Shown here: piece after piece, positions 11,061 to 53,577 of the stretch
Layout: each line of letters opens with the position of its first letter
Position numbering within the stretch: position 1 is the stretch's first letter
From: Phytoactinopolyspora halophila
GTDB taxonomy: Bacteria; Actinomycetota; Actinomycetes; Jiangellales; Jiangellaceae
NCBI RefSeq assembly: GCF_003287285.1
Contig: NZ_QMIG01000023.1
Location: 1-64,000 of the forward strand
Direction: 5' to 3'
DNA length: 64,000 bases
The notes under the pieces: generated by a model
What the model was told of the DNA's origin: nothing
The model's input: only the letters and a program-made list of their open reading frames with translations
Databases searched by the model: none
Translations under genes and position numbers: made by a program

Positions 11061-11144
11061 TCATGTTTGGTACGTTTCCTCGGGCCATAACACGTCTGCA
11101 GGCGTGTCACGGCCCGAGGAAACGTACCAAACATGATCATTCTG
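11053..11144. repeat. Family B long inverted repeat (copy B1), probable bidirectional terminator
   Basis: Perfect 34-base arms (11053-11086 and 11111-11144) begin around ATGATCATGTTTGGTACG and end in CTCGGGCC. The centre contains a further imperfect stem (ACACG/CGTGT) around TCTGCAGG, so nearly the whole 92 bases fold on themselves. It separates the convergent ramB-like and sortase genes and holds the stop codon of the former. The same element recurs at 42288-42387. Confidence 0.88.
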
Positions 11145-11150
11145 ATTGGG

Positions 11151-29020: not shown

Positions 29021-29812
29021 TCAGACCGCAGGAGCGGCCGGATCGGCGCCGCCGTAGCGGCGGTCGCGCCGTGCGTAAGATTCGATGGCGCGCCAGAAGT
29101 CCCGGCGGTCGAAGTCCGGCCACAAGGTGTCGAGAAACACCATCTCGGCATAGGCCGACTGCCACAGCATGAAGTTCGACGTGCGCTGCTCCCCCGACGA
29201 ACGGACGAACAGGTCGACGTCGGGAAGATCGGGATTGTAGAGATACTTCGCCAGCGTGCGATCACTCACCCGGTTCGGCTTGACCTTTCCGGCAGCGACA
29301 TCGGCCGCCAGCGCGGCGGCAGCGTCACCGAGTTCAGCCCGGCCGCCATAGTTCACGCAAAACTGCAAGGTGATGACGTCGTTGTGCCGGGTACGCCGCT
29401 CGGCGTCGGCCAGCTCGTCGATCACACTCTTCCACAAGCGCGGCCTCCGGCCCGCCCACCGGACCCGCACACCCAACCCGTCGAGCTCGTCGCGACGCCG
29501 GTGGATCACATCGCGGTTGAAACCCATGAGGAAACGGACCTCGTCAGGCGAACGCCGCCAGTTCTCCGTCGAGAACGCGTACGCGGACAAACACGAGATC
29601 CCGAGCTCGATGGCGCCGTGGATGACATCCAGCAGCGCCGCCTCGCCTGCCTCGTGACCCTTCGTGCGAGGCAATCCACGGCTGTTAGCCCAGCGGCCAT
29701 TGCCGTCCATCACCAGCGCCACGTGCCTCGGGAGCAGCTCCGCGGGAATCTCCGGCGGTCTCGCGCCCGACGGGTGCGGCGTCGGCACGTCATACTGCCG
29801 GCGACGGGTCAT
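29021..29812 (-). CDS. uppS: Isoprenyl transferase (cis-prenyl diphosphate synthase)
   Basis: 263-aa cis-prenyltransferase making the C50/C55 lipid carrier for cell-wall synthesis. The catalytic Asp lies in VMDGNGRWA, followed by the AFSTENW and RxxxRxSGExR-type motifs ([11 protein letters not shown]). The N-terminal 25 residues are Pro/Arg-rich and variable. The ATG overlaps the recO stop by four bases, so the pair forms the conserved recO-uppS operon. Confidence 0.95.
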
Positions 29813-30669
29813 GCCTGTTCCACCTCCGCATCACCGATCTCGCGATACAGCCGCTCCACTTCGCTGGTCGCGCTCGGCTCCTCACGCACTCCGCCGCCAC
29901 CCCTCGTCCCTCGAGCCACCGACTCCGCTTGCTCGTCGCCTCGCCGCTCCACGAACTGGAGGGACCGCAATCCCCGCTCCAGATGCCACTGCAAGAACGC
30001 GGCCGTGATCCCGCTCGCGTCGCGCCGCGCCCGCGCATCGCTGGCGTCGGCAACGGGCCAATCACCCGTCAACAACGCGCTCAGCAACGCCACCGCCTCC
30101 GGCGACGGGACGACCGTACCGGGCGGGCGGCACGCGGTGCACACCATGCCGCCCGCCTGGACGGAAAACAGCCGGTGCGGGCCGTCGGCCGCGCATCGCG
30201 CGCACTCCGCGAAACTCGGCGCGAACCCGGCGATAGACAGGCCCCGCAGCACGAACGCGTCGAGCACCAGGCCGGCATCGTGCTCACCATGCGCGAGCGC
30301 GCGCAGCGCTCCCAGAAGCAGCAGGTAATGTTGAAGCGCCGGCTCCCGCTCCTCCGCCGTGAGCCGTTCGGCGGTTTCGAGGACGGCCGTGCCGGCCGTG
30401 TAGCTGCCATAGTCCGCGCAGATGGTCCTGCCGAAGGGGTCGAGTGTCTCCACCTGGGTGACGACGTCGAGGGTACGGCCCGTGGCGAGCTGAAGGTCGA
30501 CGTGCATGAACGGCTCGAGCCGCGCCCCGAACCGGCTGGACGTGCGACGTACACCCTTGCCGACGACACGTATCCGGCCGTGGGCCCGGGTCAGCACGGT
30601 GATGATGCGGTCGGCTTCGCCCAGCTTCTGAGTCCGCAGCACGATCCCCTCATCACGGTAGAGACTCAC
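29809..30669 (-). CDS. recO: DNA repair protein RecO
   Basis: 286-aa recombination mediator helping RecR load RecA on gapped DNA. The OB-fold starts at [19 protein letters not shown]. The zinc finger reads CARC ... CTAC. A C-terminal insert of about 25 residues rich in Gly, Arg and Glu (after ERRGDEQ) interrupts the usual ending. The start is the GTG at 30669, six residues into a frame open further upstream; GGAGAC precedes it. Inverted repeat A2 lies 68-124 bases upstream. Confidence 0.92.
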
Positions 30670-30736
30670 GTCTCCATTGTCCGCCACCGCACCAACACGC
30701 GCCGACGCCCCCACTCCCCGGCCCGGCCCGCCCCAA

Positions 30737-30793
30737 CCGATGATCATGAACACTACTCGCTCTATACGAACGACTAGTGTTCATGATCATCGG
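30737..30793. repeat. Family A long inverted repeat (copy A2), probable dacB terminator
   Basis: Arms of 19 bases (30737-30755, 30775-30793) are perfect, with core ATGATCATGAACACTA; a further TCG/CGA pairs inside after one mismatch. It begins 28 bases beyond the dacB-like stop on the minus strand and precedes recO. The loop differs from copies A1 and A3. Confidence 0.85.
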
Positions 30794-36036: not shown

Positions 36037-36990
36037 TCACACGTCGTTCGCGCGCCGGCCGGATAGCTGCTCGACTTGCAACAGGAGCGCCGAATGATCG
36101 AGGTCGCCGTGTCCCTGGGCGCGCAGCGAGGCGACGAGTGTCGCCGCGAGCGCACCGACGGGGATGGCCACGCCGGTCTCGCGCGCGGCCGCCGTGACGA
36201 TCCCCAGGTCCTTGTGGTGCAGGTCGACCCGGAACCCCGGGGCGAAATTTCCCTCCAGCATCGCCGCACCCTTGCGCTCCAGGATGGCGTTGCCGGCCAG
36301 GCCGCCCGAAAGCACCTCGACGGCACGCTCCCGGTCGACACCGTGGGCGTCGAGGAACACGAGCGCCTCGGAGACCACTTCGAGGATGCCCGCGACCATC
36401 AGCTGGTTGGCGGCCTTCACCGTCTGTCCGCTGCCGGCGGGCCCGACGTGCACCACGGTGGTGCCCATGGCGTGCAGGATCGGTTTGACCGAGGTGAATG
36501 CGTGCTCGTCGCCGCCCACCATGATCGACAGCACGCCGTCTATCGCTCCCCGCTCACCCCCGCTCACCGGCGCATCGAGCACCCGGTTTCCCCGTTGCGC
36601 ACCGGCCTCGGCCAGGCGGCGGGCGACGTCGGGCCGGATGGTGCTCATGTCGATCACGGTCGCTCCGGGTGACAGGTGCGCGAGTACGCCAGCCGAGTCA
36701 CCATCGTCGCCACCTCCGGCCGCATCGTCACCGCGGGCGTCCTCGCCGGAGGCCTGGCCCAGCAGCACAGCCTCCACATCCGGCGAGTCCGGCAGCATCG
36801 TGATGACCACATCCGCACCGGCCGCTGCTTCCACCGCTGATCCGGCACGTCGCCCACCGGCGTCGACGAGCGGCTCGACCTTCGCCGGGCTGCGGTTGTA
36901 TCCGACGACGTCAAAGCCAGCACGGACGAGGTTGGCGGCCATCGGGCCACCCATGACCCCGAGGCCGATGAAGCCGATCGTGGTGGTCAT
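36037..36990 (-). CDS. 3-hydroxyisobutyrate dehydrogenase-family reductase, probably tartronate semialdehyde reductase
   Basis: 317-aa NAD(P)-dependent beta-hydroxyacid dehydrogenase. The start GFIGLGVMGGPMAANL is the dinucleotide motif; DAPVSGGERGA is the substrate-binding block and GQTVKAANQ holds the catalytic Lys. An acidic Gly-rich insert (about residues 80-98) is unusual. Pairing with a hydroxypyruvate isomerase 15 bases upstream points to 2-hydroxy-3-oxopropionate reductase (GlxR), making glycerate from glyoxylate-derived tartronate semialdehyde. No glyoxylate carboligase gene is in the window. Confidence 0.85.
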   Translation of the reverse strand: MTTTIGFIGLGVMGGPMAANLVRAGFDVVGYNRSPAKVEPLVDAGGRRAGSAVEAAAGADVVITMLPDSPDVEAVLLGQASGEDARGDDAAGGGDDGDSAGVLAHLSPGATVIDMSTIRPDVARRLAEAGAQRGNRVLDAPVSGGERGAIDGVLSIMVGGDEHAFTSVKPILHAMGTTVVHVGPAGSGQTVKAANQLMVAGILEVVSEALVFLDAHGVDRERAVEVLSGGLAGNAILERKGAAMLEGNFAPGFRVDLHHKDLGIVTAAARETGVAIPVGALAATLVASLRAQGHGDLDHSALLLQVEQLSGRRANDV

Positions 36991-37005
36991 CGTGGGTTCC
37001 TCCGG

Positions 37006-37827
37006 TCAGGAATCGGGCATGCTCTGAACACGTTCCCGCGCCCGGGTGAGCATGGCGATCGGATCGGGATCGTCACCGAGATGTTCGAGAGCGATCCATC
37101 CGTCGTAGCCACCCGCACGCAGGTCGCCCACCCATGCTTGCAGGGGCAGCTCACCCGTCCCGGGCGCACCCCGGCCGGGCGCATCGGCCACCTGGACATG
37201 GGCGACGTGGTCCCGGTGATGCTCGATCGCCGCGGAAACGTCGTCGCCGTTGACCGCCAGGTGGTACATGTCGAGCAGGAGGCCGAGGTTGCTCACGCCG
37301 GTCTCCTCGCGCACCCGGCCGGTGACGGCGACGGCATCAGCGGCCGTGCGCAGTGGGTAGTGCTCGGCACCGCTCACCGGTTCGACGAGCACCGTGGCAC
37401 CGATCGAGCTCAGCTCGCCGGCGGCGTAGGCGAGGTTTCGCACCCCCAACGTGTCCTGCTCCGCCGGGGACGCCGCCGGCTGGCGGTTTCCGTACAACGC
37501 GTTAAATACCTGGCATCCGAGTGCCGCACCGATCCGGCAGGCGGTCTCCACGCTGGCCCGCAGCTCGTCCTCGCGGCCCGGCCACGACATCACGCCCCGG
37601 TCTCCACCGGCCATGTCGCCCGCGAACAGGTTCAGCCCGGCCAGCTGCAATCCGGACTCGCCGACATTGTCGACGAAGCGCTCGACCTCGGACTCGTCGG
37701 GCGCCGCCGTGGTGAACGGCCACCAGAATTCCACGCCGTCGAAACCCGCGTCCCGCGCCAGGGTCAGGCGTTCGGGCAGCGGATATCCCTTCAACATGAT
37801 CGAACAGTTCACGGCGTAGCGCGGCAT
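37006..37827 (-). CDS. hyi: Hydroxypyruvate isomerase family TIM-barrel protein
   Basis: 273-aa sugar-phosphate-isomerase-like barrel. It begins MPRYAVNCSIMLKG, like Hyi proteins, and has LVEPVSGAEHYPL, DMYHLAVNGDD and a terminal GYDGWIALEH block carrying the metal-binding Glu/Asp/His set. It should interconvert hydroxypyruvate and tartronate semialdehyde. It precedes the GlxR-like gene by 15 bases in one operon, with the aldehyde dehydrogenase gene upstream. Confidence 0.88.
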   Translation of the reverse strand: MPRYAVNCSIMLKGYPLPERLTLARDAGFDGVEFWWPFTTAAPDESEVERFVDNVGESGLQLAGLNLFAGDMAGGDRGVMSWPGREDELRASVETACRIGAALGCQVFNALYGNRQPAASPAEQDTLGVRNLAYAAGELSSIGATVLVEPVSGAEHYPLRTAADAVAVTGRVREETGVSNLGLLLDMYHLAVNGDDVSAAIEHHRDHVAHVQVADAPGRGAPGTGELPLQAWVGDLRAGGYDGWIALEHLGDDPDPIAMLTRARERVQSMPDS

Positions 37828-39575: not shown

Positions 39576-41342
<1,767 letters not shown>

Positions 41343-41356
41343 TCAACGATGGGCGC

Positions 41357-41413
41357 GACCGGCAGCGCAAGACCACCGCGGCGAGGAAGCCGGTCTAGCG
41401 GGCCTCACCGCGG
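41357..41413 (-). promoter_or_regulatory. leuA leader with alternating complementary segments, possible attenuator
   Basis: In the transcript, segment A (41413-41403) pairs with A' (41386-41376; CCGCGGTGAGG with CCTCGCCGCGG, one G-U pair). Segment B (41395-41389, GACCGGC) pairs with B' (41363-41357, GCCGGTC). The order A-B-A'-B' means the two helices either form a pseudoknot or compete. No Leu-rich leader peptide is visible, so a classical attenuator is unproven. The rest of 41414-41511 shows nothing I recognise. Confidence 0.45.
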
Positions 41414-41511
41414 CAGCTAAGAAGAAGGAGTCCAAAACGCCGCACGGAACAAGACTGTACGCCACGCCCCGGCCACGACGCGACCCACCTCCGGTAATCG
41501 CCGGGCAGGTG

Positions 41512-42273
41512 TCACCCGGCAGGGCCGACCAGCTGGGGCAGGAGTTCGCTGATCGGTTCCCGGAGCACCGCATCGGCCCGGCCGTCGTACGGGGTCGGCT
41601 GAGCGTTGATCACGATCAATCGCGCACCGGCCGCGAGCGCGTAATCGCACAGGCCGGCGGCCGGGTAGACCGAAAGCGAGGTGCCAAGGGCCAGGAACAC
41701 ATCGCAATCCCGGCTCGCCTCGGTGGCCGCTGCCAGCACCTCGGGATCGAGCATCTGGCCGAAGGAGATCGTCGCCGATTTCTGGATCCCGCCGCATTCC
41801 CGGCACGCCGGGTCCTCGTCACCGGCCCGGACCCGTTCGAGCACCTCCGGCATGGGAGTGCGCAGCCCGCAGGACAGGCACGCCACCCAGTGCACCGTGC
41901 CGTGAATCTCGATCACATTCTCCGGCGACGAACCCGCCGCCTGGTGCAAGCCGTCGATGTTCTGCGTGACGATGGCGCGCAGCCGGCCGGAGCGTTCGAG
42001 ATCGACGAGTGCGTGGTGGCCGGCATTCGGTTCCGCGCTCCAGGCGGGGTGGTGGAGCCGCTCCTGCCAGGCGCGGCGGCGCACCTCGGGATCGGCGAGG
42101 TAGTTGTCGATGGTGAACATCGCCTGTGCCGCCGGGTCCTTCGTCCAGAGTCCTTGCGGACCCCGGAAGTCCGGGATACCCGACTCCGTGGAGATGCCCG
42201 CCCCCGTCAACACTGTCACCGTGTCGGCACTGGCCAGCCAGCGCCCGACAGCACGCGTCGTCGCCTCCTCCAT
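41512..42273 (-). CDS. NAD-dependent protein deacylase (sirtuin)
   Basis: 253-aa Sir2-family enzyme removing acyl groups from lysines with NAD. It has GAGISTESGIPDFRG, the QNIDGLH motif, catalytic His in IEIHGTVH, and a zinc site CLSC ... CREC. The class III desuccinylase Tyr-x-x-Arg signature is not apparent, so it is more likely a deacetylase. The ATG at 42273 follows TTGGGGGC. Family B repeat B2 ends only 14 bases before the ATG, so any promoter must lie inside or beyond the repeat. Confidence 0.92.
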   Translation of the reverse strand: MEEATTRAVGRWLASADTVTVLTGAGISTESGIPDFRGPQGLWTKDPAAQAMFTIDNYLADPEVRRRAWQERLHHPAWSAEPNAGHHALVDLERSGRLRAIVTQNIDGLHQAAGSSPENVIEIHGTVHWVACLSCGLRTPMPEVLERVRAGDEDPACRECGGIQKSATISFGQMLDPEVLAAATEASRDCDVFLALGTSLSVYPAAGLCDYALAAGARLIVINAQPTPYDGRADAVLREPISELLPQLVGPAG

Positions 42274-42287
42274 GCCCCCAACGTACC

Positions 42288-42387
42288 TTTTCCGAATGAT
42301 CATGTTTGGTACGTTTCCTCGGGCCGTAACACGTCTGCAGTCGTGGTATGGCCCGAGGAAACGTACCAAACATGATCATTCGGAAAA
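42288..42387. repeat. Family B long inverted repeat (copy B2)
   Basis: Perfect 38-base arms (42288-42325, 42350-42387) with the same core as copy B1 (ATGATCATGTTTGGTACG to CTCGGGCC). The centre again contains AACACGTCTGCAG. Outer ends are TTTTCCGA/TCGGAAAA here, versus CAGA/TCTG in B1. It starts four bases after the stop of the U32-like gene and sits directly before the sirtuin gene, both on the minus strand. Confidence 0.9.
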
Positions 42388-42391
42388 CGGG

Positions 42392-43303
42392 TTACTGGGG
42401 GTTCGATTCGGGGTAGTAACGGTCGAGCATCGCCAGACCGATCGCCGCCCTGCGTACCCTCTCTCTGGCCGTGCTGATCGCCAGCTGTTCGAGATGGCCG
42501 CCGGACGGGTAGAGGTTCGGCGCATTGCGCACGGCGAACTTCACGTAGATCGGCGCGGCCACGCGCACCATCTCGGGCAATTCGTAATGCCGCACCGGCG
42601 CCCCGAAATCGTCGGCGCCTTCGATGTAGACGTCGAGCGGCACCGTCACCGCTTCACGGATCGCGGCGATGTCGGCCACTGGCAGATCAACCGGAAGGTT
42701 CAGGGTCGACGCGCCAATGTCCTGCAGCACACGTGCGGTCGCGGGATTGGCTACCGGCAACGTCACCGACACCTTCAGGACGAGGTCGGGCGGCAACTCG
42801 CCCGCGCTCTTCATCCGTGCGAGCACCCACAGCTGCCCGATGTCGGCCACGAGTACGCTGCGGACACCGAGTGCACATCCGCGCCGGACGTCCTCGATGC
42901 CGTAGACGAGCTGATCGGTACCGCGCAGGCTGGCACCCACCACACGGCCGGTCGCCGACGTGACTTGAGCGCCGACGTCCCACGCGGCACGCGGACCGGT
43001 GAAGAGCGACACCTCGATGTCGTGCTCGCGTCCGAGCTCGACCATGCGGGAGATCTCGGCGTCGGTGAGGAGCATGATGCCGCTGCCCTGGCTGACCCGG
43101 TGGACCCGGATACCGTGCTCGTCCGCCGCGTCGAGTACGGCCTCGAACGCTTGCGGGCCTTCCACAGACGGGATCTCGACGCGGAACCGGGCGCCGTCGT
43201 CGAACCGGCTCGCCGACGTGTCAGGCGCCGGCTGGTCACCCCTGGCGAGCCCGAGCGAGGCCAGGAACGATCTCGTGGCGTGCATGCCGCGGTCCCCCGT
43301 CAT
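42392..43303 (-). CDS. U32 peptidase-like TIM-barrel protein
   Basis: 303-aa protein resembling U32-type barrels: a central LVYGIEDVRRGCALGVRSVLV segment and a later LNLPVDLPVADIAAIREAVTVPLDVY segment. There are no classic peptidase active residues to point to, and U32 proteins often act in RNA or cofactor hydroxylation instead. The ATG overlaps the GH51 stop by four bases (ATGA), so it is co-translated with arabinofuranosidase and probably has a role in the same pathway. Family assignment is moderate. Confidence 0.6.
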   Translation of the reverse strand: MTGDRGMHATRSFLASLGLARGDQPAPDTSASRFDDGARFRVEIPSVEGPQAFEAVLDAADEHGIRVHRVSQGSGIMLLTDAEISRMVELGREHDIEVSLFTGPRAAWDVGAQVTSATGRVVGASLRGTDQLVYGIEDVRRGCALGVRSVLVADIGQLWVLARMKSAGELPPDLVLKVSVTLPVANPATARVLQDIGASTLNLPVDLPVADIAAIREAVTVPLDVYIEGADDFGAPVRHYELPEMVRVAAPIYVKFAVRNAPNLYPSGGHLEQLAISTARERVRRAAIGLAMLDRYYPESNPQ

Positions 43304-44805
43304 CGTGCCGGCCGCAGCCGGATGACGTTCCAGCTCACCGCCGGCAGGACGAGGGATGCGGTCCCGCCGTCAGCAGTGCTTTCCGCCCTTCGAGGGCTTA
43401 CCCGATTCGGCTCGTCTCGTGTATTGGCCGCGTGGATGTCGCCGGCCAGCACGACGTGTTCGACGGCGCGAGCGTCCGAAAAGGCGCGGTGACCCACGGT
43501 CAGCTCGACCGGCTCGTCCGGGTGGCGGTTGACCGCAAAGACGACGATCTCGTCGGATTCGGGTTCGTGCGTCGCCACGGCGTGTACCACCGGTGTCTCG
43601 CCGAATCGTTCGTTGACGTAGGTGGGGCTCGACGGCTCGACCCGCAGGACCCGTCCCCGCGCCAGCTGAGCGGCGTGGCTGAACGGGTAGAACGTCGTTT
43701 GCCGCCAGGACGCACCGTTCGGCTCGGTGCGGATCGGCGCGATCGCGTTCACCAGCTGTGCCAGGCACGCGATCGCCACGCGATCGCTGTGCCGGAGCAA
43801 CGCGATGAGCAGGCTTCCGACGACGACGGCGTCGGCGACGTTGTAGGTGTCCTCGATCAGCCGGGGCGCGATCGGCCAGCCGTCGGGAGGTCCCTGCTCG
43901 TGCCACGCGGTTTGGTACCAGACGTTCCACTCGTCGAAGGACAGGTTGATGCGCTTGGTGTTCCCCGTTCGCGCCCGGACGTGATCGGCGGTCGCGACGA
44001 CGCTCTCGATGAAGTCCTCCATGTCGACGGCCGACGCGAGGAAGCTGCCGAGATCACCGTTGTGCTGCTGGTAGTACGCGTGCAGCGAGATGTAGTCGAC
44101 GTGCTCGTAGGCATGTTCGAGCACGGTCGCCTCCCACGTGCCGAACGTCGGCATGCTCGAATGCGAGCTGCCGCAGGCGACGAGTTCGAGCGACGGGTCG
44201 ATCATGCGCATCGCCCGCGCGGTCTCGGCCGCCAACCGGCCGTACTCCTCCGCGGTCTTGTGACCGATCTGCCATGGCCCGTCCAGCTCGTTCCCGAGGC
44301 ACCACAGGCGCACGTCGAACGGCTTCTCGTAGCCGTGCGCGATGCGCAAATCCGACCAGTACGTTCCGCCCGGATGGTTACAGTACTCCAGCAGGTCACA
44401 CGCCTCCTGAACGCCACGCGTGCCGAGATTGAGCGCCATCATCGGTTCGACACCCGCCCGTCGCGTCCACGTGGCGAACTCCCCAACTCCGAAGGCATTG
44501 GTCTCCCGCGAACGCCACGCCAGATCGAGCCGTTGCGGACGGGATTCCACCGGGCCGATGCCGTCTTCCCACCGGTACCCGGATACGAAGTTGCCACCGG
44601 GGTAGCGCACGACCGACACGCCCAGCTCGCGCGTCAGGTCGAGCACGTCGCGGCGGAAGCCGTCGCCGTCGGCGTTCTCGTGCTCCGGCTCGTAGATCCC
44701 GGTGTACACGCACCTGCCCAGATGCTCGGCGAACGAACCGAACATCCGCGGCGGCACATCGGCGACCTGAAAGTCGGGGTCGAGGGTGAGACTTGCTGTC
44801 AGCAC
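43300..44805 (-). CDS. Alpha-L-arabinofuranosidase, GH51
   Basis: 501-aa intracellular glycosidase releasing terminal L-arabinofuranose from arabino-oligosaccharides. The barrel begins PPRMFGSFAEHLGRCVYTGIYEP. The acid/base Glu is in CLGNELDGPW and the nucleophile Glu in LSFDEWNVWY. There is no signal peptide, fitting import of oligosaccharides by the ABC system upstream. The GTG at 44805 follows GGAGTG; it lies seven bases after the GH43 gene, with longer upstream frame rejected as overlapping. Confidence 0.93.
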   Translation of the reverse strand: MLTASLTLDPDFQVADVPPRMFGSFAEHLGRCVYTGIYEPEHENADGDGFRRDVLDLTRELGVSVVRYPGGNFVSGYRWEDGIGPVESRPQRLDLAWRSRETNAFGVGEFATWTRRAGVEPMMALNLGTRGVQEACDLLEYCNHPGGTYWSDLRIAHGYEKPFDVRLWCLGNELDGPWQIGHKTAEEYGRLAAETARAMRMIDPSLELVACGSSHSSMPTFGTWEATVLEHAYEHVDYISLHAYYQQHNGDLGSFLASAVDMEDFIESVVATADHVRARTGNTKRINLSFDEWNVWYQTAWHEQGPPDGWPIAPRLIEDTYNVADAVVVGSLLIALLRHSDRVAIACLAQLVNAIAPIRTEPNGASWRQTTFYPFSHAAQLARGRVLRVEPSSPTYVNERFGETPVVHAVATHEPESDEIVVFAVNRHPDEPVELTVGHRAFSDARAVEHVVLAGDIHAANTRDEPNRVSPRRAESTADGGTASLVLPAVSWNVIRLRPAR

Positions 44806-44812
44806 GAGATGA

Positions 44813-45919
44813 TCACTCCATTGTCGCGACGACGGGCCAGCCATCGGCCCAGTCCATGCTTCTGATCTGCATCCGGATGACGCCGTCCGCATCAGCGTCG
44901 TAGTAATGGTGAATCAGGTAGTGAATGCCGAATTCGACGTGCACATCCTGTCCACCGGGCCCGATCTGGTTGCCCTCGCTCTCCAGGATCACCGTCCCTC
45001 CGCCGTCCATGAGTGCAGTCCCGTCCCGATCGACGTACGGGCCGGTGACGGAGGTGGACCGGCCCACCGCGATCTTGTACGTACTGTCCGTGCCAGAGCA
45101 GCACTGGTCCCATGATGTCAGCAGGTAGTAGTAACGACCGCGACGGAAGATCGTCGGCGCCTCGATGGCGTTCGGCGGCACGCCGCGATCGGCCAGCGCG
45201 TGGAGGGGGCCGACGGGCTCGGTCATCGATGCGAGTTCTTGCAGTTTGATACCGCTCCAGTGGGAGCCGAACGCCATCCACCACGTGCCCTCGGCCCGGA
45301 ACACGTGCGGGTCGATCGCGTTGAAATCGTCACCCTCCCGGGAGGTCACGACGGGGCCGTGGTCGACCCAGCTGTCCAGATCACCCGGATCCCGGGTCGA
45401 GGCAACACCGATCGCGGAGGTGTTCGAACCGAACGACGACACGGCGTAGTACAGGTAATATCGGCCTGCCCGCCGGACGACCTGCGGCGCCCACAGATGA
45501 TTCGGCTCGTACTCGTGCACCCACTCGGGCACGGCGATCTCACCCATGGATTCCCACGGGCCGCCGAGCTCCGGGGAACGACGCACGAAGATCCCACCGG
45601 GATCCTCCGGATCACGCAAGATCCCGGTGGAGAAGACGTAGTACGTGTTGCGATCCTTGACGATCGCCGGATCGTGCACCGGATCGTCCACCTCGCCGGG
45701 CACGAAGTCACCGATATCGCCGGTCATCTCGAGGACGCCACGCGGCGGGCGCGGCGCCCGGGAATCGGGTTCTGCCTGGGCGAACCCCATCGTCGCCACC
45801 AGACATCCACCCAGCACCAGCACGCGTGCCGCACGCCATGCCCGGGCCCGGCGGCATGCCCATGCCACCGCTCGCCGAAACGCCGGAAGACCGTCCGTTC
45901 TGTCACGACCCGTCCACAC
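44813..45919 (-). CDS. Secreted GH43 arabinan endo-1,5-alpha-L-arabinosidase-like enzyme
   Basis: 368-aa five-bladed beta-propeller hydrolase. An N-terminal basic region and hydrophobic segment (about 28-50, ending FAQAEP) form a signal peptide. The three GH43 acids appear in VHDPAIVK (Asp base), NAIDPHVF (Asp modulator) and AIEAPTIF (Glu acid). It would cleave arabinan outside the cell, producing oligosaccharides for the transporter. GTG start after AGGAG. It lies 24 bases downstream of the MalG-like permease gene. Confidence 0.9.
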   Translation of the reverse strand: MWTGRDRTDGLPAFRRAVAWACRRARAWRAARVLVLGGCLVATMGFAQAEPDSRAPRPPRGVLEMTGDIGDFVPGEVDDPVHDPAIVKDRNTYYVFSTGILRDPEDPGGIFVRRSPELGGPWESMGEIAVPEWVHEYEPNHLWAPQVVRRAGRYYLYYAVSSFGSNTSAIGVASTRDPGDLDSWVDHGPVVTSREGDDFNAIDPHVFRAEGTWWMAFGSHWSGIKLQELASMTEPVGPLHALADRGVPPNAIEAPTIFRRGRYYYLLTSWDQCCSGTDSTYKIAVGRSTSVTGPYVDRDGTALMDGGGTVILESEGNQIGPGGQDVHVEFGIHYLIHHYYDADADGVIRMQIRSMDWADGWPVVATME

Positions 45920-45943
45920 GGTTTACTCCTCCCTGGTACGTGC

Positions 45944-46900
45944 TCACTTGGCGCCCGTACCGAACTGGCCCAGACCGTTGATGAACTGCTTGCGCATCAA
46001 GAAGAACAAGATCATTATTGGCACGACGGCGAGGACTGCTGCGGTCATGACGAGATCCCATCGGGGCCGGTAGAGGCCCACCAGCGTGGTGATGCCGACT
46101 GACAGCGGGAAGTTCGACTCGCTGCGCATGACGATGAGCGGCCACAGCAGATCGTTCCACTGTTCGAGCGAGAAGATGATCGCCAGCGTCGCCAGAGCCG
46201 GCTTGACCATCGGCACGACGATGCCGAAGAAGATCCGGTATTCCGAGGCACCGTCCACGCGGGCCGCATCGAACACTTCCTGTGGCAGGCCCAGCATGTA
46301 CTGACGCATGTAGAAGAGCCCGAACGGATGCGCCAGCATCGGCAGGATCACACCCAGATGGGTGTCGATCAAGCTCAACTCGATCATGAGCAGGAAGAGC
46401 GGGATCAGCAGCAGGTGGAAGGGCAGCATCTGCGATGCCAGGATGCTGACGAAGATGGTATTCCGGAACGGAAACTCGATCTTGGCGAGCGCGTAGGCGG
46501 CCATGGTCACCACCACCATCGAGCCGATCGCCGAGCCCGCCGTGAGGATGATCGAGTTCATGAACCACGTGCCGATCGGCGTCTCCTGCGCCAGCGCCCG
46601 GAAGTTGTCGAGGGTCAGCGTCGAGGGAAAGAAGCTGCCGGCGTCGGCGAAGATCCGATTGGAGGGGCGCAGGGCACTGATGAACAGCCAGTAGAACGGG
46701 ACAAGAAAGATCAGGGCGACGACGCCGACACCCGCCGTGGCCAGAACCTTCTTGTGTCCACCCGGAAACCGGCGCCGACGGCCGTCCGGATACAACGTGC
46801 CCGGCCACCGCTGCTCGACGCCGTCGTCCGGCGGCGACGGGTGGATCTGGACATCACGGGGAGCCGACGTGTCCACCTGCGTCTTGTTCTCGGGATTCAC
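45944..46900 (-). CDS. Carbohydrate ABC transporter permease (MalG-like)
   Basis: 318-aa inner permease subunit. A polar N-terminal tail of 50 residues precedes six membrane helices. The EAA loop reads DAARVDGASEYRIFFGIVVP, the coupling site for the ATPase. No ATPase gene is in the cluster, so a shared MsmK-type ATPase elsewhere probably energises it. GTG start six bases after the partner permease stop. Confidence 0.93.
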   Translation of the reverse strand: MNPENKTQVDTSAPRDVQIHPSPPDDGVEQRWPGTLYPDGRRRRFPGGHKKVLATAGVGVVALIFLVPFYWLFISALRPSNRIFADAGSFFPSTLTLDNFRALAQETPIGTWFMNSIILTAGSAIGSMVVVTMAAYALAKIEFPFRNTIFVSILASQMLPFHLLLIPLFLLMIELSLIDTHLGVILPMLAHPFGLFYMRQYMLGLPQEVFDAARVDGASEYRIFFGIVVPMVKPALATLAIIFSLEQWNDLLWPLIVMRSESNFPLSVGITTLVGLYRPRWDLVMTAAVLAVVPIMILFFLMRKQFINGLGQFGTGAK

Positions 46901-46906
46901 CAGCGC

Positions 46907-47839
46907 TCAATCCTTCTTGAAGAAGCCGAACAACTTCAGCACGACGATTGACAGGGCCATGATGATCAGCGCCAGCACGACACCGATCGCGGAGGCGTAG
47001 CCGAGCTGGAACGATGTGAAGGCCGTGCGATAGAGGTGGACGACGATGCTCAGGCCGCCCTGGCCCGGTCCGCCCCCGGTACCCCACAAGATCAGCGGCT
47101 CGACGAAGAGCTGGAATCCGCCGAACAAGGTGAGCACGGTCACGAAGAGGATGATCGGCTTGGACAGCGGCACGGACAGGTGCCAGAACTTGCGCACCGG
47201 TCCGGCCCCGTCGACGGACGCGGACTCGTACAGCTCGTTCGGAATGTTGGACAGACCGGTCGTGAAGTAGATGATGTTGATCCCGGTCCACCGCCAGGTC
47301 GCCATGATGATCATTGCCGGGACGGCCAGGTGGCGTGTCTCCAGCCACCCCTGTTCGGGAACGCCGAACAGGCCCAGGAAGCTGTTCAGCAGGCCGTTGG
47401 TGGCCAGCAGCAACGAGAAGACGACGCCGACGACGACCAGCGATGTCAGCACCGGCAGGAAAAACGCGGACCGGAACATCGCCTGCCGGGCCACCAGCTT
47501 CGAGCGCAGCACGGCCGCCAGGACGAACGGCAGCGGAATGAGGATCAGCAGCGTTCCAACGGTGTACAGCGCCGTGTTCTGCAATGCGGTCAGGAACGTG
47601 CTGTCGGTCAGGAGCCGGCGATAGTTGTCCAGGCCGGCCCATTCGCTCACGCCGATGCCCTCGATGTCCTGGAAGCTGAGCACCACGGCATAGCCGACCG
47701 CGTACACCCGGAACACCACGAACAGGGCGAGGAACGGCAGCAGGAAGACCGCAGCCACGACGGGCGGGCGGTGAAAGAACGGGGGTTTCGGCTTGCGGGC
47801 ACCACTCCGTGCCGCCCGCGTCGTCGTCGCTATCGACAT
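46907..47839 (-). CDS. Carbohydrate ABC transporter permease (MalF-like)
   Basis: 310-aa permease with six helices and the EAA-type loop (YESASVDGAGPVRKFWHLSVP). It pairs with the MalG-like gene and the upstream binding protein. N-terminal 25 residues are basic and cytoplasmic. Substrate is inferred to be arabino-oligosaccharide from the adjacent GH51 and GH43 genes. Confidence 0.93.
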   Translation of the reverse strand: MSIATTTRAARSGARKPKPPFFHRPPVVAAVFLLPFLALFVVFRVYAVGYAVVLSFQDIEGIGVSEWAGLDNYRRLLTDSTFLTALQNTALYTVGTLLILIPLPFVLAAVLRSKLVARQAMFRSAFFLPVLTSLVVVGVVFSLLLATNGLLNSFLGLFGVPEQGWLETRHLAVPAMIIMATWRWTGINIIYFTTGLSNIPNELYESASVDGAGPVRKFWHLSVPLSKPIILFVTVLTLFGGFQLFVEPLILWGTGGGPGQGGLSIVVHLYRTAFTSFQLGYASAIGVVLALIIMALSIVVLKLFGFFKKD

Positions 47840-47896
47840 ATCCGCACCTTCGTGACGTGGAGCCGAGTGATCGTCAGGCCGGGCGTGATCCCGGCA

Positions 47897-49273
47897 TCAG
47901 TCCATCGCTTCGACTTCTTCCGTCGCCTTGCGCAGAGCCTCCTCCGGCGACGCGCCCTCTTCAACGACCTCATAGGCGACGGTCTCGCGTAGCTGGACGA
48001 TGGCTTCCGGGTACCGCGGCCCGGTGTACTCGGGCGCGAGCCGGTCGAACATGTCCCTGAGGTTGGTCATCACCGGCTCACCACCGAACCAGGGGTCCGG
48101 CTCGGTGAGCGCCGGGTCGTCGTAGACATCGGTGCGGAACGGGTCGAAGCCGAGCTCGGTCCACAACGCCACCTGCGAGTCGTACTCCAGCTTGGCAAAC
48201 TCCAGGAACTGCTTCGCCGCGTCGAGTTTGTCCTCGTCGATCTGCGTCGTGATCGCCGTGCCGGTGCCGCCGCCCATGGTGCTGATGAACTCACCGGACT
48301 CGAACTCGGGCAACGGGCGGATGAGCATGTTGCCCTCCGTCTCCGGCATGAAGTCCTTGAACCGCGTCACGTACCACTGCGGCATCCACACGGACGCGTA
48401 GGCACCGTCGTTGAGCGCCTCGTAATAGGAGGTCTCGTGGTGCATGCCACCTTCCGCGACCTCGGCGATCTCGTGTTCGTGGACCATGTCCGAGATCAGC
48501 TGCAGCGCTTCGACGTTCTCCGGGCTGTCGAGTATCAGCTCGTTGTTCTCGTTGTACGTGCCGCCGCCGTTCTGCAACATCAGTCCGAGCACCGAGAACC
48601 GGTCCGTCGTCTCGATCGACGTCATAGCGGCGTCGGTGTTCTCGACCACCTGCTCGCCGGCCTCTATATAGTCGTCCCACGTCACGATGGAGTCGACATC
48701 GACGCCAGCCTCCTCGAGGATCTCGTTGTTGTAATACATCACCCAGGTACCGAGGTGGTAGTCGATCCCGTACTCGACACCGTCCAGCTGATACGGGGCG
48801 GTGCGCTCCTCCACCAGCTGGTCGCGATGTTTGTCCACCAGGTCCGTCAGCGGATGCAGGGGGACGTCACCACGGAGGAATGTGGCGAAGCGCTGGATCT
48901 CGATGTCCACGATGTCCGGCGCGCCCGAACCCGATTGCAGGGCAATCAACAGCCGGTCGTGCATCTCCTCGAAGTCTGCCGTCGACGCGTCCAGGATGAT
49001 GTTGTATTCCGAGTTCTGCTCGTTGAACTCCTCGGCTCGCGCCATCATGAAGTCCGTGTGCGCATCGACGAACGTCCAGAACTCCAGCTCGACGTCCTCG
49101 CCCTCGTGTTCGGGATCCGCCTCCATCGCCTGCCGCTCGGTGTCTTCGCCCTCTTCCAGCTCCGCGATACTGTTCCCGTCCTCACCGGCACATCCGGCAG
49201 CCACGAGCGCGAGAACGGCGAAGACGGGCACCGAACCGAGCCACGGCCGACGACTTCTTGTTAGCGCTAACAT
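47897..49273 (-). CDS. Extracellular solute-binding lipoprotein for oligosaccharides
   Basis: 458-aa cluster-B type binding protein. A signal peptide ends in a lipobox (LVAAGC, Cys near 28), then an acidic linker and the two-lobed fold (FWTFVDAHTDFMMARAEEFN near the start). It is first in the operon with two permeases, GH43, GH51 and the U32-like gene. The ATG at 49273 follows AGAGGA. A 14-base LacI-type palindrome overlaps its first codons. Confidence 0.92.
   Translation of the reverse strand: MLALTRSRRPWLGSVPVFAVLALVAAGCAGEDGNSIAELEEGEDTERQAMEADPEHEGEDVELEFWTFVDAHTDFMMARAEEFNEQNSEYNIILDASTADFEEMHDRLLIALQSGSGAPDIVDIEIQRFATFLRGDVPLHPLTDLVDKHRDQLVEERTAPYQLDGVEYGIDYHLGTWVMYYNNEILEEAGVDVDSIVTWDDYIEAGEQVVENTDAAMTSIETTDRFSVLGLMLQNGGGTYNENNELILDSPENVEALQLISDMVHEHEIAEVAEGGMHHETSYYEALNDGAYASVWMPQWYVTRFKDFMPETEGNMLIRPLPEFESGEFISTMGGGTGTAITTQIDEDKLDAAKQFLEFAKLEYDSQVALWTELGFDPFRTDVYDDPALTEPDPWFGGEPVMTNLRDMFDRLAPEYTGPRYPEAIVQLRETVAYEVVEEGASPEEALRKATEEVEAMD
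49259..49272. promoter_or_regulatory. LacI-family operator overlapping the start of the binding-protein gene
   Basis: TGTTAGCGCTAACA is a perfect 14-base palindrome with the CG-centred form typical of LacI-family operators. It overlaps the ATG (49273-49271) of the solute-binding gene. Bound repressor would block elongation or act as a downstream operator. No LacI-type gene is in the window. Confidence 0.65.
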
Positions 49274-49439
49274 TTTGGGATCCTCTCGCCTCTCGACTGC
49301 CCCGCCGCTGTGTTTCGTCCGGCACCAGATTCTCGGCCGTTCCTGCTGACGACCTCGAAGAATGTGCCGGCACTTGGAGATCACGTCCGGGAGATGTGGA
49401 CGATCTGGATGCTAGTTGTGATCCCAGTCACGGTCAAGG

Positions 49440-49451
49440 TATCAGATGAGT
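49440..49451. promoter_or_regulatory. Candidate GntR half-operator
   Basis: TATCAGATGAGT differs by one base from the right part of the palindrome at 49557-49571. It lies about 165 bases upstream of the binding-protein gene, where it could control that operon. Confidence 0.4.
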
Positions 49452-49556
49452 TTCTTTGCCAATCCGTAACAGTACCGAGGGAAATCGGGCCACATGCATG
49501 TCAGATACGACGTCTCGCAGCAATCAGGCAGCACGGTATTCTGTGTTGCGGACAAT

Positions 49557-49571
49557 ACTTATCAGATAAGT
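49557..49571. promoter_or_regulatory. Candidate GntR/FCD operator palindrome
   Basis: ACTTATCAGATAAGT is a perfect 15-base palindrome (arms ACTTAT/ATAAGT, centre CAG), 25 bases before the GntR start codon. It would suit autoregulation by the adjacent FadR-subfamily protein. Confidence 0.55.
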
Positions 49572-49595
49572 AGCCATCCAGGTGTTACTGAAAGC

Positions 49596-50411
49596 ATGCC
49601 CCTCCCGCCGTCACCCGCGTCCTCGGGCCGCCTGAAAGGAGTGCCACCGCTGAACGCACACGAGCGTGTCGTCGACCACCTCGAACACTTGGTCTTCGGC
49701 GAACTCGCACCTGGCTCGCCCCTGCCATCCGAATCCCAGCTGGTCGAGCAGCTCGGAGTCAGCAGGCTCACCGTCCGCGAGGCCGTCAGATCGCTGCAAG
49801 CGCGTGGGTTGATCGAGGTCCATCGCGGCCGCCGGCCCGTGGTCGCCCGCCTGAACACATCCGCGATCACCGACTTCTTCGCCTCCAGCATCCGCCGCGA
49901 TCCGCGCAGCGTCCTCGACCTGCTCGAAGTTCGCCGGGGCCTCGAAGTCCAGACCGCTACCCTGGCGGCTGGCCGGATGAACCGCACGGCTGCGACCTCG
50001 ATGACAGAGAGCCTGGACGCGATGCACGCGTCCCTGGATGATCCGGACGCCTTCGATTCCGCCGACGTGCGCTTCCACGAGGCACTCGCCTCCGCGAGCG
50101 GGAATCAGGTCCTCACGTTCCTCATCGAGGCGATGGCATTACCGTTGCGGGAGAGCAGGAGGCAGAGTCGCCACGGTCACCTCGCCCGCGGCCGTCCGCT
50201 GGTCGCGATCATCGAGGAACACCGGCGCATCCTCGAATGCGTGCTGGACGGGGACGCCAAGGGCGCCGCCGAGGCCATGCAGGCACATCTCCGCCAAACC
50301 GAGCGATCGCTGCACATGACGCTGGATCTACCGCTCGCTGGCAACGGCAGCGAGCCCGGCCCGGCCGCGACCCCGCGGCCCTCGTCCGCTCCGGCGGACG
50401 AGCAGAACTGA
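49596..50411 (+). CDS. GntR family regulator, FadR/FCD subfamily
   Basis: About 271 aa. A winged helix at about residues 25-90 (GSPLPSESQLVEQLGVSRLTVREAVR, split) is followed by an all-helical FCD ligand domain with Asp and His metal ligands (FDSADVRFHEAL; a later IIEEHRRIL). The C-terminal 25 residues are disordered. It is divergent from the sugar transporter operon, so it probably senses a pathway intermediate. Start uncertain: ATG at 49596 has a weak ribosome site, while AAAGGAG further in could serve a later codon. Confidence 0.85.
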   Translation: MPLPPSPASSGRLKGVPPLNAHERVVDHLEHLVFGELAPGSPLPSESQLVEQLGVSRLTVREAVRSLQARGLIEVHRGRRPVVARLNTSAITDFFASSIRRDPRSVLDLLEVRRGLEVQTATLAAGRMNRTAATSMTESLDAMHASLDDPDAFDSADVRFHEALASASGNQVLTFLIEAMALPLRESRRQSRHGHLARGRPLVAIIEEHRRILECVLDGDAKGAAEAMQAHLRQTERSLHMTLDLPLAGNGSEPGPAATPRPSSAPADEQN

Positions 50412-50432
50412 TGGCCGGGCCCGCACTGAGAG

Positions 50433-51376
50433 TCAGAAGCCGAGCCGGCCCAGCTTCTTGGGATCGCGCTGCCAATCCTTGGACACCTTGACATGAAGGT
50501 CGAGATAGACCGGCGTTCCCAGCAATCGCTCGATGTGCTTGCGTGCGGTCGTGCCGACCTCACGTAGCCGCGCGCCCTTGCGGCCGATCACGATCGACTT
50601 CTGGCTGTCACGTTCGACGAAGATGTTGACGTAGATGTCGAGCAGCGGCCGGTTCTCGGGCCGATCTTCGCGCGGCTGCATCTCCTCGACCACCACGGCA
50701 ATCGAGTGGGGAAGCTCGTCGCGGACACCTTCGAGCGCCGATTCGCGGACCAGCTCCGCGATCAGTTTCTCCTCGGGCTCGTCCGTCAGCTCCCCCTCCG
50801 GATACAGCGGCGGACCGGCGGGCATCTGAGCCAGGAGGAGTTCGGTCAGCAAGCCGACCTGGGTACCGGTCGTCGCCGAGACGGGAACGATCTCCGCCCA
50901 GTCGATCTCGAGTTCGACGCCGAGATCGGCAACCGCGGCCAGATGCTCGGCGAGCCGGCTGTCGGATACCAGATCCATCTTGGTAGCGACCGCGATCCTC
51001 GGCGTCGACGTGATCCGCGCCAGCTCCGCTGCGATGTAGCGATCGCCGGGCCCAATGCGCTCGTCGGCCGGAAAGCACATCGCGATGGCGTCTACCTCGG
51101 CCCATGTCGTGCGCACGAGGTCGTTGAGCCGCTGTCCCAGCAGTGTCCGGGGACGATGAAGTCCAGGTGTGTCCACCAGGATGAGCTGGCCGTCGTCGCG
51201 ATGGACGACACCGCGGATCGCGTGCCGCGTCGTTTGCGGCCGAGTCGAGGTGATCGCCACCTTCTGCCCGACGAGCGAGTTCATCAAGGTGGACTTGCCT
51301 GTATTCGGCCGCCCGACGAAGCAGGCGAACCCGGAGCGATACTCGGCCCCTTCTGGGCCGCCGTCGAGTTGAGTCA
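50433..51376 (-). CDS. era: GTPase Era
   Basis: About 314-aa ribosome-assembly GTPase binding 16S rRNA. The P-loop GRPNTGKST, switch II DTPGLHRP, the TKMD specificity motif, and a C-terminal KH domain (VIGRKGARLREVGTTARKHIE) are all visible. Two GTG starts are possible (51398 and 51376); the later one is listed because homologues begin near the SGFACFVGRP segment. Family A repeat A3 ends close upstream, leaving 36 or 14 bases for initiation signals. Confidence 0.93.
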
Positions 51377-51412
51377 CCCGTCGAGTATCCCAAACCACCC
51401 GCCCCCGTCCCC

Positions 51413-51463
51413 ATGATCATGAACACTAACCGACCTCTGTGGTCGGTTAGTGTTCATGATCAT
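51413..51463. repeat. Family A long inverted repeat (copy A3)
   Basis: Perfect 23-base arms (51413-51435, 51441-51463) around a 5-base loop. The core is ATGATCATGAACACTA, with the inner part AACCGACC/GGTCGGTT differing from A1 and A2 but still paired. It begins 23 bases beyond the stop of the zinc-ribbon membrane-protein gene and lies just upstream of era, both on the minus strand. Confidence 0.88.
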
Positions 51464-51486
51464 CGGAGGGAGGGAGCGGGGTGGGG

Positions 51487-53451
51487 TCAGGCGGAACCGC
51501 GCTTGCGGAGCGCCTCATCCACGGCCGGATCGCCGAGCTGGCCGAGCCACTCGACCAGCTCCGGATAGGTCGCAGGATTTACCGCGATATGCGGACGCAA
51601 CGACGGCTCCTTCGCGGCGATGTCGGCCAGGGTTTGCAACGGCGTGTTCGGATCTTCGGCCATGCTCGCCGTGTAGCCGGACGCGGTCACCGGTTCCGGC
51701 TCGGGAGCGGCCGGCGCGGACGGCTGCTGCTCGGTAGCCGGCACTGCCGTCGGTTCCTCTGCCAGCTCCGGCTCCACCTCGGCCATATTCGGATCCTCGC
51801 TCGGAAAGACCCGGGTGGAGTCGTCATCGTTGCCCGTGTCCGGGGTCTGCCCGGCGCCCGTATCGGGCTGAGCCGTGGCCGAGTCCTGCTGTGCCGCGGC
51901 CGCCCTGCTCTCTGCCGCCTGAGCAGCAGCCGGGGCCTGCGAGGAGGTCGCGCCCCGGGGTTCGGAATGCGTCGCCACACCGCCGGGCGTGCCCTGCCCG
52001 GCCGGAGCCGCCGCGGTCGCGGAGCCCTGGCCGACGGTGAACGCCCCGAGCTCGTCACGTACCGACTTCGGCGTGGTCAAGACGAGGGCGATCGCGATGG
52101 CGAACACGAACCAGGCGCTGATCGAGGTGGCCGCGAACCTCTCGATGAAGGCGGCATCGGAGGCGCCCAGCACGGCAGCACCGACGATACCCACGACCGC
52201 CAGCGCACCGGCTACACCCATGGCGACCGGACGTCCCGTCTGCGCATCGGCGGTCAAGGCGTTGCGCCCGACGAGAGCCACCGCCAGGGCGATGAGCCAG
52301 AGCACGAGCACCGTGATGTACGGGAACCGGGCGTCCTCGTTCTCGATCAGTTCGAAGGCGAACACGGCCACCCCCGCCACCGCTGTCACGATGGCGAGCT
52401 GGAAGATGCGGACGGGAACGCCGAGCCAGCGCGCGGCTCCACCGCTTCTGCCGATGAGCACATCCAGTCCGGGCGCCGCGGCAGCCACGGCCAGCGCCGG
52501 CCACACGAGGAATCCCGGTCCCATCAGCCGCTGGGACCACACGTCCCCGATCGTTTCTTCGGCGCCCAGCGACCAGAAGGCGGCGATCAACCCGACCACG
52601 CCCAGGACGACGGTCGCGTCACGCCACGCCGCGTCGTGGCGCATCACGCCCAGCACGGCAAGCACCGGCAGGCCCACGAAGAACAAGGTGACCAGCACGT
52701 AGACGATGATCTGGCTCCACTCGGCGAACTCGCCGGCGTCGATCAGGAAGATGATCGCGCTGATCAGCCCCAGCACGACGGCGACACCGGCCAGCGCGAG
52801 CGTCACGGTACGCCACAAGGCGCCATCGCCGGCGCCGTCCTGTTCGGACGAGCGCCCCTGCGCCGCCATCAGCACGCCGGCCAGACCGATCACCAGGCCC
52901 ACGCCGATCCCATCTCCGGAATCGACGCCCGTCCCGAACGCGCCACCGGGACCACCGCCGTCGCCGAGATACGCCAGCACCAGCGTGACGAGAACGACGG
53001 CGACGTAGGGAACATTGGCAAGTAACCGGACCAGCCGCTGCTGCGCGGGCCGTATCGTGTCCGGCAGGACCGAAGCGGCGCGCAGGTACGGCAGGGACAA
53101 CGAGATGATCGACAGCAAGGTCACGAGAATGACATAGACCTTGCCCGTCGCCTGATCCTCGAAGTCCCATGCCATGCCGAGCGGTACCAGCAGGAACAGC
53201 ACCGACAGCACGTCACGCACGTAGTCGCCGATGGGGATGGCGGCGAACGGGTTGGCCGGACGTACCGCCGCGCCGGCCGCTGGCCGCGCTCCCCCTCCCT
53301 GCGGCGTTCCTTGCGGCGCCCCGCCCGGCGGACTGGTGGCCGTCTCAGGAGGGCTCGTCGGTTGTTGCGCCGATGGGCTCATCGGTTGGCCACAATTCGT
53401 GCAGTACGGCGTGCCCGTAGCACGCGCACCGCAATTGCCGCAGAAGTTCAT
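51487..53451 (-). CDS. Zinc-ribbon, multi-spanning membrane protein with C-terminal LRV-like repeat
   Basis: 654 aa. The N-terminus has a zinc ribbon (CGNCG ... CTNCG), then a Pro/Gly/Gln linker. About ten membrane helices span residues 75-430. A long Ala/Gln/Pro/Glu-rich disordered segment follows (about 435-590). The last 60 residues (TPLQTLADIAAKEPSLRPHI onward) resemble a variable leucine-rich repeat unit, usually written LAxxP..R..VAxNPxxP. Function unknown; a membrane sensor or scaffold is a guess. It sits between era and the cytidine-deaminase-like gene. Confidence 0.78.
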   Translation of the reverse strand: MNFCGNCGARATGTPYCTNCGQPMSPSAQQPTSPPETATSPPGGAPQGTPQGGGARPAAGAAVRPANPFAAIPIGDYVRDVLSVLFLLVPLGMAWDFEDQATGKVYVILVTLLSIISLSLPYLRAASVLPDTIRPAQQRLVRLLANVPYVAVVLVTLVLAYLGDGGGPGGAFGTGVDSGDGIGVGLVIGLAGVLMAAQGRSSEQDGAGDGALWRTVTLALAGVAVVLGLISAIIFLIDAGEFAEWSQIIVYVLVTLFFVGLPVLAVLGVMRHDAAWRDATVVLGVVGLIAAFWSLGAEETIGDVWSQRLMGPGFLVWPALAVAAAAPGLDVLIGRSGGAARWLGVPVRIFQLAIVTAVAGVAVFAFELIENEDARFPYITVLVLWLIALAVALVGRNALTADAQTGRPVAMGVAGALAVVGIVGAAVLGASDAAFIERFAATSISAWFVFAIAIALVLTTPKSVRDELGAFTVGQGSATAAAPAGQGTPGGVATHSEPRGATSSQAPAAAQAAESRAAAAQQDSATAQPDTGAGQTPDTGNDDDSTRVFPSEDPNMAEVEPELAEEPTAVPATEQQPSAPAAPEPEPVTASGYTASMAEDPNTPLQTLADIAAKEPSLRPHIAVNPATYPELVEWLGQLGDPAVDEALRKRGSA

Positions 53452-53577
53452 CACTCAATCTCCAGTCCGGTTCCTTGACCTCATGCTCTCACCATGTCGT
53501 CGCAAGGCTCCGGGCCACACGCTAGAGCACGGTCGTCCTCATGAACAGTGCCCTGGCCGAGGAGCGATCAAACCCCC

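Follow-up and report, generated by a model that had tools for sequence, protein, structure and literature searches.

The DNA analysed here (the window) is the first 64 000 nt of contig NZ_QMIG01000023.1 (assembly GCF_003287285.1, family Jiangellaceae). It contains an arabinan-use cluster (42392-50411), which lies between era on one side and a sirtuin gene and leuA on the other, together with two families of short palindromes, here called A and B, copies of which are found near the cluster. That the cluster lies here reflects a genome rearrangement that is specific to this lineage and ordinary in kind. In the reading that we consider probable, the cluster is an old possession of the family that was relocated to this place, and the palindromes are gene-end repeats that resemble repetitive extragenic palindromes (REPs) and are not demonstrable carriers of the cluster.

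The era-leuA space and the origin of the cluster

Genes were called in the window and matched to profiles, and this bore out the genes that an earlier note, made from the sequence, had placed here. One side of the cluster is occupied by leuA (39576-41315, minus strand; 2-isopropylmalate synthase, NCBIfam TIGR00970, 832.6 bits) and the gene for a sirtuin (41512-42369, minus strand; Sir2 family deacylase, PF02146, E 1.9e-43), the ATG start of which is likely near 42275. On the other side are era (50433-51398, minus strand; NF000908, 351.7 bits) and the gene for a DUF7937 protein (51487-53454, minus strand; PF25592, E 1.1e-100). The genes recO (29809-30753) and uppS (29021-29812), both on the minus strand, are about 9 kb past leuA.

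The region around era was taken from 20 genomes of the same family, one stretch per genome (20 kb long, or 14.7 kb in one case), and the window proteins were placed on these stretches. In 16 of the 20 loci less than 1 kb separates era from leuA, confirming for this family that the two genes are usually close together, as the note had stated. The distance is 9117 bp in the window, 2077 bp in G013, 2925 bp in G004 and 4550 bp in G012, and leuA was not seen in the era stretch of G002. Arabinan genes were found between era and leuA in none of the 20 loci, and this synteny comparison supports the proposal that the cluster was inserted into the era-leuA order. The space is filled differently by lineage. 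In G004, the sirtuin gene likewise lies between era and leuA, with two DJ-1/PfpI-type genes separating it from era, and in G012 the space is occupied by fumarate-reductase-like genes. The arabinan cluster was therefore placed between era and the sirtuin gene in this lineage.

We note that the contents of the era-leuA space vary in G004 (L033), G005 (L037), G010 (L032), G012 (L049), G013 (L041) and G020 (L045), and it may be a frequent insertion place. Homologues of a hydroxyacid-dehydrogenase gene (starting at 36037) and a gene for a protein like triosephosphate isomerase (TIM)-barrel isomerases (starting at 37006), which together span 36037-37827 in the window, were found near leuA in G010 (L032:10474-12188) and G012 (L049:5555-7245).

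Relatives of the U32-like protein encoded at the left end of the cluster are present in 11 of the 22 family genomes. In the surroundings that were fetched, homologues of the transporter and glycosidase genes lie beside the U32 gene in G004, G010, G012 and G014; the site is common to the last three, and is a different one in G004. The window genome belongs to the same family as G010, G012 and G014, which are Phytoactinopolyspora, but stands under another genus label. Identities to the relatives' cluster are 80-84 % for the U32-like protein, 86-90 % for permease A and, over the full length, 76-82 % for permease B, and those for the sugar-binding protein, GH43 and GH51 are 70-80, 72-75 and 77 %, respectively. 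For comparison, the housekeeping proteins Era and LeuA share 79-82 and 84-85 % identity. The guanine plus cytosine (G+C) content of the cluster, 0.61-0.69 in 1 kb steps, overlaps the 0.63-0.71 of the stretch past era. As the identities are close to the housekeeping level and the G+C content overlaps that of the neighbouring stretch, these sequence comparisons favour vertical descent with relocation over recent transfer, and we infer relocation as opposed to repeated loss or gain.

Horizontal gain of the cluster from a Phytoactinopolyspora-like donor, with a chance landing at era-leuA, would be in keeping with the best named matches, which are to Phytoactinopolyspora, and with the patchy presence of the U32 gene in half of the family genomes. 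However, identities near those of housekeeping genes argue against it, as do the lack of a composition break between the cluster and the 53-57 kb region, and the palindrome past the U32 gene, the stem of which is that of the window genome and not that of a donor. We consider such a gain rather unlikely.

The palindromes and the edges of the cluster

Members of family A are about 51 nt long with the core ATGATCATGAACACTA, and there are 180 exact half-sites in the window genome. Family B members consist of ATGATCATGTTTGGTACG arms around a central hairpin, about 100 nt in all, and have 79 exact half-sites. The reversed patterns, used as a control, have no sites in this genome. The outer foot of the palindromes is TGATCAT, symmetric on both sides. 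The repeats listed in the earlier note are real: a family A 16-mer has 7 sites where 0.00 are expected, and a family B 18-mer has 4 where 0.04 are expected. Of the 10 ATGATCAT words in the window, 9 fall in family A or B elements, and Rfam has no match anywhere in the window. Outside the window genome, family A was found in 5 more of the 22 family genomes and family B once in one more.

The left edge of the cluster is marked by a family B palindrome of 100 nt (42288-42387; 50 nt arms, 94 % complementary; RNA fold -80.7 kcal/mol, z -13.9), which lies between the U32-like and sirtuin genes, 13 nt past the U32 stop. On the right side, a family A palindrome (51413-51463; RNA fold -72.0 kcal/mol, z -12.5) lies beyond era, upstream of that gene and about 1 kb off the right edge, at the 3' end of the DUF7937 gene and 24 nt past its stop. 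The right junction itself, the 21 bp from the GntR stop to the era stop (50412-50432), was found to be repeat-free when the sequence was read, and the two junctions (220 nt compared with 80 nt, direct and inverted) have no exact word of 9 nt or longer in common. The claim that repeats flank both sides of the cluster thus holds at the left edge but not at the right.

A palindrome 13-19 nt past the U32 stop is also present in G010, G012 and G014, each with the dialect of its own genome. At the Phytoactinopolyspora loci L064, L065 and L067 the cluster is sited elsewhere, yet a palindrome directly follows the U32 gene. As the palindrome is found past U32 in relatives that have the cluster elsewhere, the one at the left edge is best read as a U32 gene-end element. 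One palindrome near an edge also says little, because palindromes are scattered through the genome in the numbers given above. The suggestion that the repeats helped the rearrangement is therefore unsupported: the left palindrome tracks the end of the U32 gene and the right junction is free of repeats. The note had itself named breakpoints that do not coincide with repeats as evidence against its suggestion; coincidence was found at the left edge but not at the right.

Recombination between dispersed palindromes could in principle have moved the cluster, with the right-hand palindrome then lost or the exchange uneven, and the family B palindrome at the left edge, near-identical copies of which are scattered in the genome, would suit such an event. 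However, the right junction has neither a palindrome nor a common word, and a palindrome stands past U32 in the three relatives that have the cluster at another site as well. We consider this explanation very unlikely. An exchange between palindromes that was confined to the left edge is possible.

The window contains further copies. One family A palindrome (30740-30790; RNA fold z -11.7) lies past the stop of an S13 carboxypeptidase gene, another (6275-6329) is the source of the TGA stop of an open reading frame that ends at 6280, and a family B palindrome (11049-11145; RNA fold z -15.6) lies between convergent genes.

Gene-end placement, dialects and spread of the palindromes

The surroundings of 40 B places, 40 A places and some others were fetched and their genes were predicted with a codon-usage caller, the family A copies being drawn from the first 100 of the 180 listed places. 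Half-elements without an exact arm were dropped from the gap-orientation and orthologue tests. L102, a falsely paired locus that is 1 of 7 'long' B rows, was dropped from the orthologue set and is still in the first gap-orientation set. The 22 short B palindromes lie between genes oriented ++ (4), +- (7) or -- (11), and none is between divergent genes. Among the 51 short A palindromes, 11 are in ++, 13 in +- and 16 in -- gaps, 2 are in a called gene and 1 is at the end of a stretch. Divergent gaps are depleted among gaps of at least 60 nt that contain an element (9 of 88, compared with 48 of 163 without one; Fisher 4.5e-4) and convergent gaps are enriched (26 of 88 compared with 13 of 163; Fisher 1.5e-5). 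For the 81 facing stops no more than 300 nt from a short element, 38 are inside the element and 39 more are within 50 nt. The stops inside elements (26 of 52 for A, 12 of 29 for B) are mainly the TGA of ATGATCATG.

When transcribed, a palindrome that abuts or spans a stop codon would give the mRNA a strong 3'-terminal hairpin, and such hairpins may end or protect transcripts. Four window copies folded as RNA gave -64 to -82 kcal/mol, with z from -11.7 to -15.6. Pairing of family A flanks past the core exceeds that of permuted partners (0.523 compared with 0.456; 0 of 5000), and no excess pairing past the core was seen for family B flanks. Family A could be set inside older hairpins, or the arms could have been copied onto each other. 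In several family A copies (e.g. L132, L156, L161 and L163), the palindrome extends a further 15-18 nt in locus-specific sequence.

Strong hairpins placed at gene ends are also what would be seen if the palindromes were conventional Rho-independent terminators that resemble repeats. However, only 2 of 80 elements have at least five T among the 10 nt that follow, dozens of copies are highly identical across 50-100 nt, and each family B stem is nearly confined to one genome. We therefore view this explanation as unlikely. A search for classical terminators found 3 terminator-like sites in 41000-52000, compared with 4.1 in shuffles, and none was at a palindrome; classical terminators were rejected as an explanation.

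REPs are described in PMC3733652 as high-copy short palindromes that lie between convergent and co-directional genes and often supply the stop codon, and CGTC REPs are also reported there without a dedicated transposase. The window palindromes share with REPs and REPINs of the GTAG and CGTC superfamilies the high copy number in intergenic positions, the placement downstream of genes with few copies between divergent ones, and the supply of stop codons. These features would agree with classical REPs mobilised by a REP-associated tyrosine transposase (RAYT; Y1/HUH). However, the window palindromes differ from REPs in having symmetric TGATCAT feet, longer stems and no consistent end tag. A GTAG word near the end was found in 1 of 51 A and 0 of 22 B elements, and a CGTC word in 7 of 51 and 4 of 22. 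A Y1_Tnp domain was found in none of the 22 family genomes. Among 12 further genomes that have the palindromes it was found in 1, so that 33 of the 34 searched gave no match; the same search was positive in 5 of 14 control genomes. Mobilisation by a RAYT is accordingly improbable.

The DNA uptake sequences of Neisseriaceae and Pasteurellaceae have species-specific dialects and occur as inverted pairs near terminators. The window palindromes are like them in their dialects and inverted pairs, but differ in that their motif is nearly confined to gene-end palindromes, as the count of ATGATCAT words shows. No title or abstract describing these palindromes was found in the literature covered, which leaves out most subscription journals, and searching by motif returned papers on unrelated subjects.

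A B-type pattern in which the stem 7-mer was left free has 81 sites in the window genome, 101 in G014, 144 in G010, 97 in G004 and 12 in G012, and 0 or 1 in the remaining 17 of the 22 family genomes. There is mostly one 7-mer per genome, and it differs between genomes (based on the listed places for G014, G012 and part of G010, the 79 exact sites of the window genome, and one G004 locus). Shared places were examined using 40 B loci, 20 from G014 and 20 from G010, with loci that had been fetched for other reasons (L031-L033, L064, L065 and L067) excluded. Ten locus pairs could be matched through an orthologue, and in 8 of them the two elements face the same end of that gene; 2 of these 8 combine a B element in the relative with an A element in the window genome. 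For gene pairs, 9 were facing in both, 2 facing in the first only, none facing in the second only and 26 facing in neither (Fisher 4e-7). As elements stand at the same gene ends in relatives and carry the stem of their own genome, gene ends keep the element while its sequence follows the genome. The shared places would fit inheritance of position combined with concerted rewriting of the sequence, and also elements that arrived repeatedly at gene ends that they favour.

Some family B copies are split, two arm-plus-hairpin units enclosing unrelated DNA, and their arms are 0.28-1.66 kb apart. In one case a gene lies between inverted units (L076:5751-7016) and has a syntenic counterpart in G010 (L273:1930-3203), so that the arrangement is found in two genera with the stem of each genome; the called protein has no Pfam match. 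In G014, contigs C1, C2, C3, C4, C5, C13, C16, C23, C29 and C33 have a B-type site no more than 200 nt from their start, and the palindromes probably break assemblies.

Pairs of the form TGATCAT...ATGATCA, with 27-57 nt between, number 163 in the window genome and at least 6 in 21 of the 22 family genomes. In a class sample of 393 genomes, a number of genomes from other families have 10-23 pairs and most others have 0-5, and the reversed pattern gave 0 or 1 in each of the 393. Of 20 loci taken from three such genomes, which represent two other families, 18 are non-divergent, though the comparison there has only 30 control gaps (6 divergent); most of the 20 face a stop codon no more than 60 nt away. 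We suggest, tentatively and as less probable than not, that actinobacteria have a class-wide family of such palindromes, in which the TGATCAT(G) foot is invariant, the places at gene ends are inherited and the stem stays uniform within each genome through concerted rewriting of the copies. The system responsible would copy or convert sequence, would read the foot and would not be of the Y1 type, and the hairpins would form mRNA 3' ends. Both the role of the hairpins and the mode of spread proposed here are conjectured from sequence.

Several points weigh against the reading of a relocated family possession with gene-end repeats beside it. GH51, though present in the window, in G004 and in three g2 loci, is missing from the fetched clusters of G010 (which reaches the contig end), G012 and G014. 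The cluster is thus no copy of that of any single relative, and several exchanges are possible. The source site is not demonstrable, as the window genome has no match to the DUF6351 gene that borders the cluster in G010, G012 and G014, and the insertion can be dated only to this branch. For the palindromes, the remaining 8 of the 51 short A elements are between divergent genes, the T-rich stretches after only two elements leave classical intrinsic termination unsupported, and the gene caller was trained on 19 window genes and made some miscalls (e.g. to the left of 6277).

Cluster genes, the U32-like protein and significance

The operon (42392-49384, minus strand) encodes a sugar-binding protein (47897-49384; PF01547, E 4.8e-25), two ABC sugar permeases (46907-47839; PF00528, E 9.5e-12; and 45944-46900; PF00528, E 7.1e-14), a GH43 protein resembling arabinan endo-1,5-alpha-L-arabinosidase (44813-45919; PF04616, E 1.6e-41), an ArfA type GH51 alpha-L-arabinofuranosidase (43300-44892; NCBIfam NF051901) and the U32-like TIM-barrel protein (42392-43303; PF01136, E 9.5e-9). 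A GntR/FCD regulator gene (49494-50411, plus strand; PF07729 and PF00392) is divergent from it. GH51 clears the curated ArfA cut-off (734.5 compared with 625 bits), whereas GH43, with a clear Pfam domain, is below the curated cut-off for AbnA-type endo-arabinanases (NF053747, 268.5 compared with 480 bits). The ABC transporter of the earlier note was recovered as permeases and binding protein, but the cluster contains no ABC ATPase gene. Importers of this kind frequently rely on a shared ATPase.

The operon would serve the uptake and degradation of arabinan. The binding protein and permeases would import arabino-oligosaccharides with an ATPase from elsewhere, GH43 and GH51 would free L-arabinose, GntR would regulate, and the U32-like protein would act in an oxidative, Weimberg-type sugar-acid route. 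Known L-arabinan utilisation clusters have the same enzyme and transporter content (GH51, GH43 and an ABC importer). The window cluster differs in also encoding the U32-like TIM barrel, relatives of which elsewhere adjoin sugar-acid dehydratases.

The match of this protein to Peptidase U32 (PF01136) is weak (35.3 bits compared with a cut-off of 22.4) and covers residues 146-230 (79 of 233 positions). It shares this weak profile match with peptidase family U32, but no cysteine is among the invariant columns of 13 relatives and its nearest solved folds are of the aldolase type. Searching solved-structure sequences gave a single match (E 0.53). AlphaFold2 predicts a TIM barrel, with a mean predicted local distance difference test (pLDDT) score of 80, and in Foldseek the model matches class II aldolases, and TIM barrels similar to them, best, with template modelling (TM) scores of about 0.5.

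Neighbours were counted in the best 80 of 574 stretches. They include FAH-fold proteins in 24, MR/MLE dehydratases in 22, alpha-ketoglutaric semialdehyde dehydrogenase-like proteins in 21 and IlvD/EDD in 18 (two at 25 % identity); GH43 genes accompany 5 of the 80 and a distant GH51 accompanies 1. In G004, the U32-like gene overlaps an arabinono-lactone-oxidase-like gene. Judging from these neighbours and the model, a role in oxidative pentose or sugar-acid catabolism is probable, and the peptidase name looks misleading. The family is widespread, occurring in Actinobacteria, Chloroflexi, Acidobacteria and Bacillales, where it adjoins sugar-acid dehydratases and semialdehyde dehydrogenases, and it may be a misnamed sugar-acid enzyme in many phyla.

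The cluster itself represents an ordinary genome rearrangement; the repeats matter more, and the palindromes deserve separate study. A RAYT transposase is the usual explanation of REPs, and the REP-like palindromes described here, which have dialects, a constant foot and conserved positions at gene ends, occur in genomes where none was found. They provide a concrete system for studying by what means short palindromes can spread and remain uniform when there is no RAYT, and how mRNAs end in high-G+C actinobacteria.

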